Assembly: GCA_003212515.1 (NCBI GenBank)
Contig: QCPL01000005.1
Location: 1-64,000, forward strand
Direction of reading: 5' to 3'
Length of the DNA: 64,000 bases
Origin: Prochlorococcus sp. AG-436-M02
GTDB taxonomy: Bacteria; Cyanobacteriota; Cyanobacteriia; PCC-6307; Cyanobiaceae
The position numbers and the translations under genes are program-made. A model generated the notes under the pieces. That model was not told the DNA's origin. It did no database searches and saw only the letters and a list, made by a program, of their open reading frames with translations. Each line of letters starts with the position of its first letter. The stretch's first letter is position 1. Shown here in pieces: positions 8,609-9,746 of the stretch.

Positions 8609-9746
8609 GTGCATGATCTTACTGATTTTAAAAAGTCTATTTCTTTTTTGAGTGATCGCCTGAGCAATGCTCAGGACTGTCTTTGACGTACCTGCTTTAC
8701 ATGCTAGGAAGTTAGATCTTGAACAAATTGCAGCTCAGCCAGATTTCTGGAACGATCAACAGAAGGCTAAAAAACAAATGCGCCTCTTAGACGAGGTTAG
8801 GGATCAATTGAATAAATTAATAGAATGGCAAGGGATTCTTCAGGATGCGATAGCTGTTTTAGATTTGTATGAGATTGAGGAGGATGATGAATTTCTTACA
8901 GAAGCTCAACATGGATTAAATAAATTAGAAGCTGAACTTGATCTTTGGGAGCTTGAAAGGCTCTTGAGTGGTCCTTATGACAAGGATGGCGCGGTCTTAG
9001 CAATAAATGCTGGTGCAGGGGGGACAGATGCCCAAGACTGGGCTCAGATGCTTTTAAGAATGTACACACGTTGGGCGGAATCACATGGGATGAAAGTGAC
9101 GCTAAATGAACTTTCTGAAGGAGAAGAAGCAGGTATTAAAAGTGCGAGTATTGAAATAGAGGGACGTTATGCATACGGTTATTTGCAGAATGAAAAAGGG
9201 ACGCATCGCTTAGTGAGAATCTCCCCTTTTAATGCCAATGGGAAACGTCAGACTAGCTTTGCAGGTGTAGAGGTTATGCCACAACTTGATGAGGATATTC
9301 AACTAGAAATCCCTGATAAAGATTTAGAGATAACCACAAGTCGATCAGGGGGAGCTGGTGGACAAAATGTCAATAAAGTTGAAACTGCAGTTCGTATTCT
9401 TCATATACCAACTGGTTTAGCAGTTAGGTGTACTCAAGAACGTTCACAGCTTCAGAATAAAGAGAAGGCTATGGCATTATTGAAAGCAAAATTGATGATA
9501 ATTGCTCAGGAACAGCGTGCTGCAGAGATTGCTGATATTCGCGGTGACATGGTCGAAGCAGCTTGGGGAAATCAGATTAGAAACTATGTGTTTCATCCTT
9601 ATCGGATGGTTAAAGACTTACGCACTGAGAAAGAATCTACTGATGTAGAAGGAGTTATGAATGGAGACATAGATTTATTTATTCAATCTCTTCTATTACA
9701 AGGCATTGAGCAAAAAGATCATCAATTAGACGGTACAGATCAATGA
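8609..9746 (+). CDS. prfB: Peptide chain release factor 2, translated by programmed +1 frameshift
   Basis: GTG at 8609 opens [25 protein letters not shown], stopping at TGA 8684-8686. A +1 shift at CTT_TGA_C joins [22 protein letters not shown]... ([10 protein letters not shown] present). The track reports only the shifted frame from 8667. Confidence 0.93.

Follow-up and report, generated by a model that had tools for sequence, protein, structure and literature searches.

The prfB gene of the window (the whole stretch of 64,000 nucleotides that was analysed, from a Prochlorococcus-type assembly of ~1.5 Mb) carries a programmed +1 frameshift site that is probably a variant, common to the class Cyanobacteriia, of the autoregulatory site of release factor 2 (RF2), in which a 7-bp hairpin would stand in place of a decayed Shine-Dalgarno (SD) sequence. 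RF2 frameshifting as such is already known and belongs to textbook biology; the apparently new part is the upstream hairpin in place of the SD, in a whole major class. By comparison of sequences, the role of +1 stimulator has most likely passed from the SD helix to the hairpin, a function that we infer. On balance, and with less assurance, we also favour a broader statement: that throughout the class Cyanobacteriia, including Gloeobacter-like deep branches, the SD:anti-SD stimulator was swapped for an mRNA hairpin that re-forms in the SD chamber of the ribosome, a natural SD mimic which would be, as far as could be found, the first conserved case in bacteria of +1 frameshifting stimulated by an upstream hairpin.

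All features of the locus lie on the forward strand. In frame 0, prfB ORF1 (8609-8686) opens with GTG 8609 and comprises 25 sense codons, the last of which, CTT 8681-8683, is followed by TGA 8684-8686 and by C 8687; together these form the shift site CTT_TGA_C (8681-8687), with CTT as the P-site codon, a stop codon specific to RF2, and C in the +4 position. Reading of RF2 resumes in the +1 frame at GAC 8685 (D) and runs to the stop, at 9746; this ORF2 (8685-9746) encodes the RF2 body, according to the open reading frame list, the PF00472 match and the RF2 relatives. The sequence-only reading had placed a +1 shift at CTT_TGA_C and considered it missed by gene calling, and both statements hold: the exact frames are as proposed, and plain ORF calling of the window reports RF2 as 8667-9746 only. 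The genome encodes three PF00472 proteins, among which prfB (8609-9746) is the best match; the second, a release factor on contig 29, is presumably RF1. The third is a 174-aa protein on contig 14 (G000:C14:5111-5497, L003), possibly an ArfB-like rescue factor, judging by its size.

RF2 matches were gathered at the genus, family, class and phylum levels, and the DNA ahead of the RF2 body was then read. CTTTGA, with frame 0 open upstream and RF2 downstream, was found in every readable Cyanobacteriia prfB (267 loci and 22 more), with an ORF1 start codon conserved 25 (or 24) codons ahead of the TGA; the C after the premature stop is kept in nearly all relatives. The programmed frameshift of the window prfB is thereby confirmed, at the level of sequence comparison, as real and not due to chance. 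The layout that defines such sites, CTT (or TTT) with an in-frame TGA or TAA behind it and RF2 in the +1 frame, is present here. In family f13, three loci (L255, L258, L318) read CTTTGAA or CTTTGAG, having lost the C after the stop and kept the hairpin. Among the picocyanobacteria listed, including the window (GTG 8609), most open ORF1 with GTG or TTG instead of ATG, which suggests weak initiation.

Initiation of RF2 at the +1-frame ATG 8667-8669, without any frameshift, would be compatible with a frame that is open from 8667, and deserves almost no credence: 64 of 202 unique relatives possess the equivalent ATG and two thirds lack it, while ORF1, its start and CTTTGA are conserved. The internal start was rejected on these counts, in agreement with the earlier view that this ATG, which lies inside the loop and 3' arm of the hairpin described below, is probably a false start.

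The hairpin, overlooked in the earlier note, occupies positions 8659-8675 (CCTGAGC-AAT-GCTCAGG) and consists of a perfect 7-bp stem with a 3-nt loop, a predicted folding energy of -11.3 kcal/mol, and 5 nt between the end of the stem and CTT; its 3' arm includes the AGG of the supposed SD. The window site therefore has the feature by which upstream-hairpin +1 stimulators are recognized, namely a stable stem-loop immediately 5' to the shift codon's E site (7 bp, -11.3 kcal/mol, 5 nt). Conservation was counted on the 202 unique upstream sequences among the 267 Cyanobacteriia loci: all 7 pairs are formed in 176 of the 202, and at least 6 pairs in 196 of 199 sequences (about 98%), with variants such as CCTGGGT-AAA-ACCCAGG, CCTGGGC-AAT-GCCCAGG and CCTGAGT-AAA-ACTCAGG, among others. 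Weak stems of 4-5 pairs occur in L011, L018/L068 and L208, and L313 has 5 pairs, its outer pair and its AGGA both being lost without compensation. Scanning for the same stem and loop at other offsets gave none, the hairpin being found only at 5 nt ahead of CTT. For the 82-nt stretch taken as a whole, the folding z-score is modest (-1.35) because the 17-nt hairpin is diluted in it, and an Rfam search near the site at E<=5 returned only a chance snoRNA match. The case for the hairpin is carried by the comparative evidence.

The pairing was compared with several null models. In the codon null, amino acids were fixed and codons were drawn according to the usage of each gene (500 draws, 113 genes); complete hairpins were observed in 99 of the 113 genes, against a mean of 11 and a maximum of 20. 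In the permutation null, codons were shuffled between sequences sharing an amino acid (1000 rounds), and the 176 complete hairpins observed compare with a mean of 126 and a maximum of 138. Codon choice in the 28 low-GC genes points the same way: the Leu codon of the hairpin is CTG in 100% of them, against 4% expected from the share of CTG among their own Leu codons, and its Arg codon is CGC in 89%, against 11% expected. The excess over the codon null indicates that the protein sequence does not account for the hairpin.

Two pairs covary, pair 5 (G-C/A-T) and pair 7 (C-G/T-A), and in each of them one side is a synonymous and the other a nonsynonymous position. They were compared with a tree-aware null in which the two sides of the stem evolve independently along the RF2 tree. 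For pair 5, both measures lie above this null, the paired fraction with p 0.002-0.005 and the mutual information with p<0.001; for pair 7, the mutual information does (p 0.003), and the paired fraction by itself shows no excess (p 0.34-0.47). A strict test of independent pairs, made on the same tree, had few supported branches and low power. Pair 5 admits G-U (47 cells) and shows no A-C, of which 18 were expected; at pair 7, 4 occurrences of C-A compare with 43.5 expected. The asymmetry between G-U and A-C at pair 5 indicates that the sense RNA strand is concerned.

These results bear directly on the idea that the conservation stems from the peptide (RLGKTQDYL) or from a DNA palindrome instead of an RNA. 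The end of ORF1 is indeed conserved in amino acids, and the repeat is palindromic, but the synonymous choice is constrained far past the needs of the peptide, the bases opposite in the stem change together with the G/S and T/A residues, and a DNA palindrome does not predict that G-U should be common at pair 5 and A-C absent. Peptide-level conservation and a DNA palindrome, which we regard as very improbable, were rejected on the codon nulls and on this asymmetry.

The energies of the SD and of the hairpin were then compared between Cyanobacteriia, 14 prfB sites from sister classes of the phylum, and the E. coli site, whose sequence was confirmed. Upstream of CTT, pairing with the anti-SD is weak in Cyanobacteriia (median -4.0 kcal/mol) and stronger in the sister classes (-8.2 to -11.5) and in E. 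coli (-10.7). Folding of the hairpin region has a median of -11.7 kcal/mol in Cyanobacteriia, against 0 to -8.8 in the sister classes. The sister-class sites (L268, L270-L273, L275, L279, L280, L282, L291-L293, L295, L296) carry a strong SD, of the AGGAGG or AAGGAG kind, and no hairpin, and read, for example, AGGAGGcatCTTTGAC or AAGGAGtgtCTTTGAC, which suggests that a strong SD is ancestral in the phylum. The canonical form of the site has a strong SD (approximately AGGGGG/AGGAGG) 3 nt ahead of CTT, and the window has AGGAC (8673-8677) at that place, a weak residual SD-like sequence whose AGG lies within the 3' arm; the site was consequently classed as a variant and not as the canonical SD form. 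The 16S anti-SD of the window genome, CACCTCC, is intact, so that the change sits in prfB.

The sequence-only reading had correctly noted AGGAC 3 nt ahead of CTT, and had likened it to the E. coli site; the motif stands, and the E. coli-like mechanism finds little support. Under that mechanism AGGA would pair with the anti-SD, and the hairpin would be incidental or a mere insulator. It would fit with the presence of AGGA in most Cyanobacteriia members, with the intact anti-SD tail, and with the internal SD being a known stimulator of the prfB shift in other bacteria (PMC12421855; PMC5009743). Against this, the duplex amounts to only -4.0 kcal/mol (-8 to -11.5 elsewhere), and the AGG is buried in a hairpin of -11 kcal/mol; in genus g136 (L252, L308) the outermost pair has changed from C-G to G-C, a compensatory double change that makes AGCA of AGGA, with the hairpin kept; and the 5' arm is conserved against codon bias, for which an SD gives no reason. 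Ordinary SD stimulation is thus judged unlikely, although a weak SD may still contribute, AGGA being kept in most members.

Stimulation of the shift by the hairpin would proceed as follows. With little RF2 at hand, termination at UGA 8684 would be slow, as in the known mechanism, whose operation here is suggested by the cassette; the P-site tRNA-Leu would slip from CUU to UUU, and reading in the +1 frame would give full-length RF2. In Cyanobacteriia, where the strong SD would have decayed to AGGAC, the 7-bp mRNA hairpin would have taken over. Unwound by the translating ribosome, it would re-form behind the E site once CUU is in the P site, and in this form would fill the mRNA exit and SD-helix space and favour the forward slip. 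Counting with the first base of CUU as +1, positions -12 to -6 are occupied by the 3' arm of the hairpin, in the usual place of an SD/anti-SD helix.

A real hairpin could also have another role: it might mask AGGA and so damp the shift, make the ribosome pause, bind a protein or small RNA, or serve as an mRNA processing site. Hairpin formation and AGGA:anti-SD pairing are mutually exclusive, and conservation extends from the pairing to the arm sequence itself, CCTGRGY...RCYCAGG, both of which would suit such a role. The fixed 5-nt spacing, and the presence of the hairpin where the canonical SD is missing, fit a stimulator better, and the SD retains little strength that could be hidden; we therefore give another role a low probability, about the same as that of ordinary SD stimulation or very slightly above it.

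If stimulation by the hairpin is correct, any short helix behind the E site could drive +1 slippage, and cyanobacterial prfB would offer a natural system for the question of how upstream structure moves the ribosome forward. It would also help annotation tools that search for an SD at prfB. If, in addition, a strong SD is ancestral in the phylum, the swap of stimulators would be dated to the base of Cyanobacteriia.

For most bacteria, the driver of the RF2 slip is a strong internal SD helix beside the E site. The survey of Prince et al. 2025 describes the prfB cassette as nearly invariant across bacteria and its SD as hyper-conserved, and the words hairpin and cyano are absent from its main text (PMC12421855). 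Literature searches found no hairpin in cyanobacterial prfB and no experiment on any cyanobacterial prfB shift site; Baranov et al. 2002 lay outside their coverage, so that the priority of the hairpin is not certain. With prfB of the E. coli type (PMC12421855) the window gene shares CTT_TGA_C, the RF2-specific stop, an ORF1 of ~25 codons and an ORF2 encoding RF2; in place of AGGGGG/AGGAGG, it has the weak AGGAC inside a 7-bp hairpin that ends 5 nt ahead of CTT.

The closest experimental counterpart is found in the designed upstream hairpins of Huang, Cho and Chang 2018, which at CUUUGA raise +1 shifting on 70S ribosomes in vitro to ~60% of the SD effect and were termed functional mimics of the SD duplex, their stimulation being seen only without RF2 (PMC6321510). 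They have in common with the window hairpin the position just 5' of the E site beside CUUUGA and the stimulation of the +1 shift, predicted in the case of the window; they differ in being designed 12-bp GC-rich stems of measured activity, whereas the window hairpin is natural, has 7 bp, is conserved across a class and is known from its sequence. Refolding of an upstream hairpin has been proposed to pull the mRNA or to touch the exit region (PMC3639245). Similarly, the 5' stem-loop of phage T4 gene 60 folds as the mRNA emerges from the exit channel, and a 5'-ward pull on the mRNA has been proposed for it (PMC5009743); gene 60 is, however, a case of bypass of a coding gap, while the window prfB would undergo a +1 slip governed by the level of RF2. 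Considering the position of the 3' arm together with the SD-mimic hairpins (PMC6321510), the refolding proposal (PMC3639245) and gene 60, the cyanobacterial hairpin is taken, by analogy, as a probable natural replacement of the SD.
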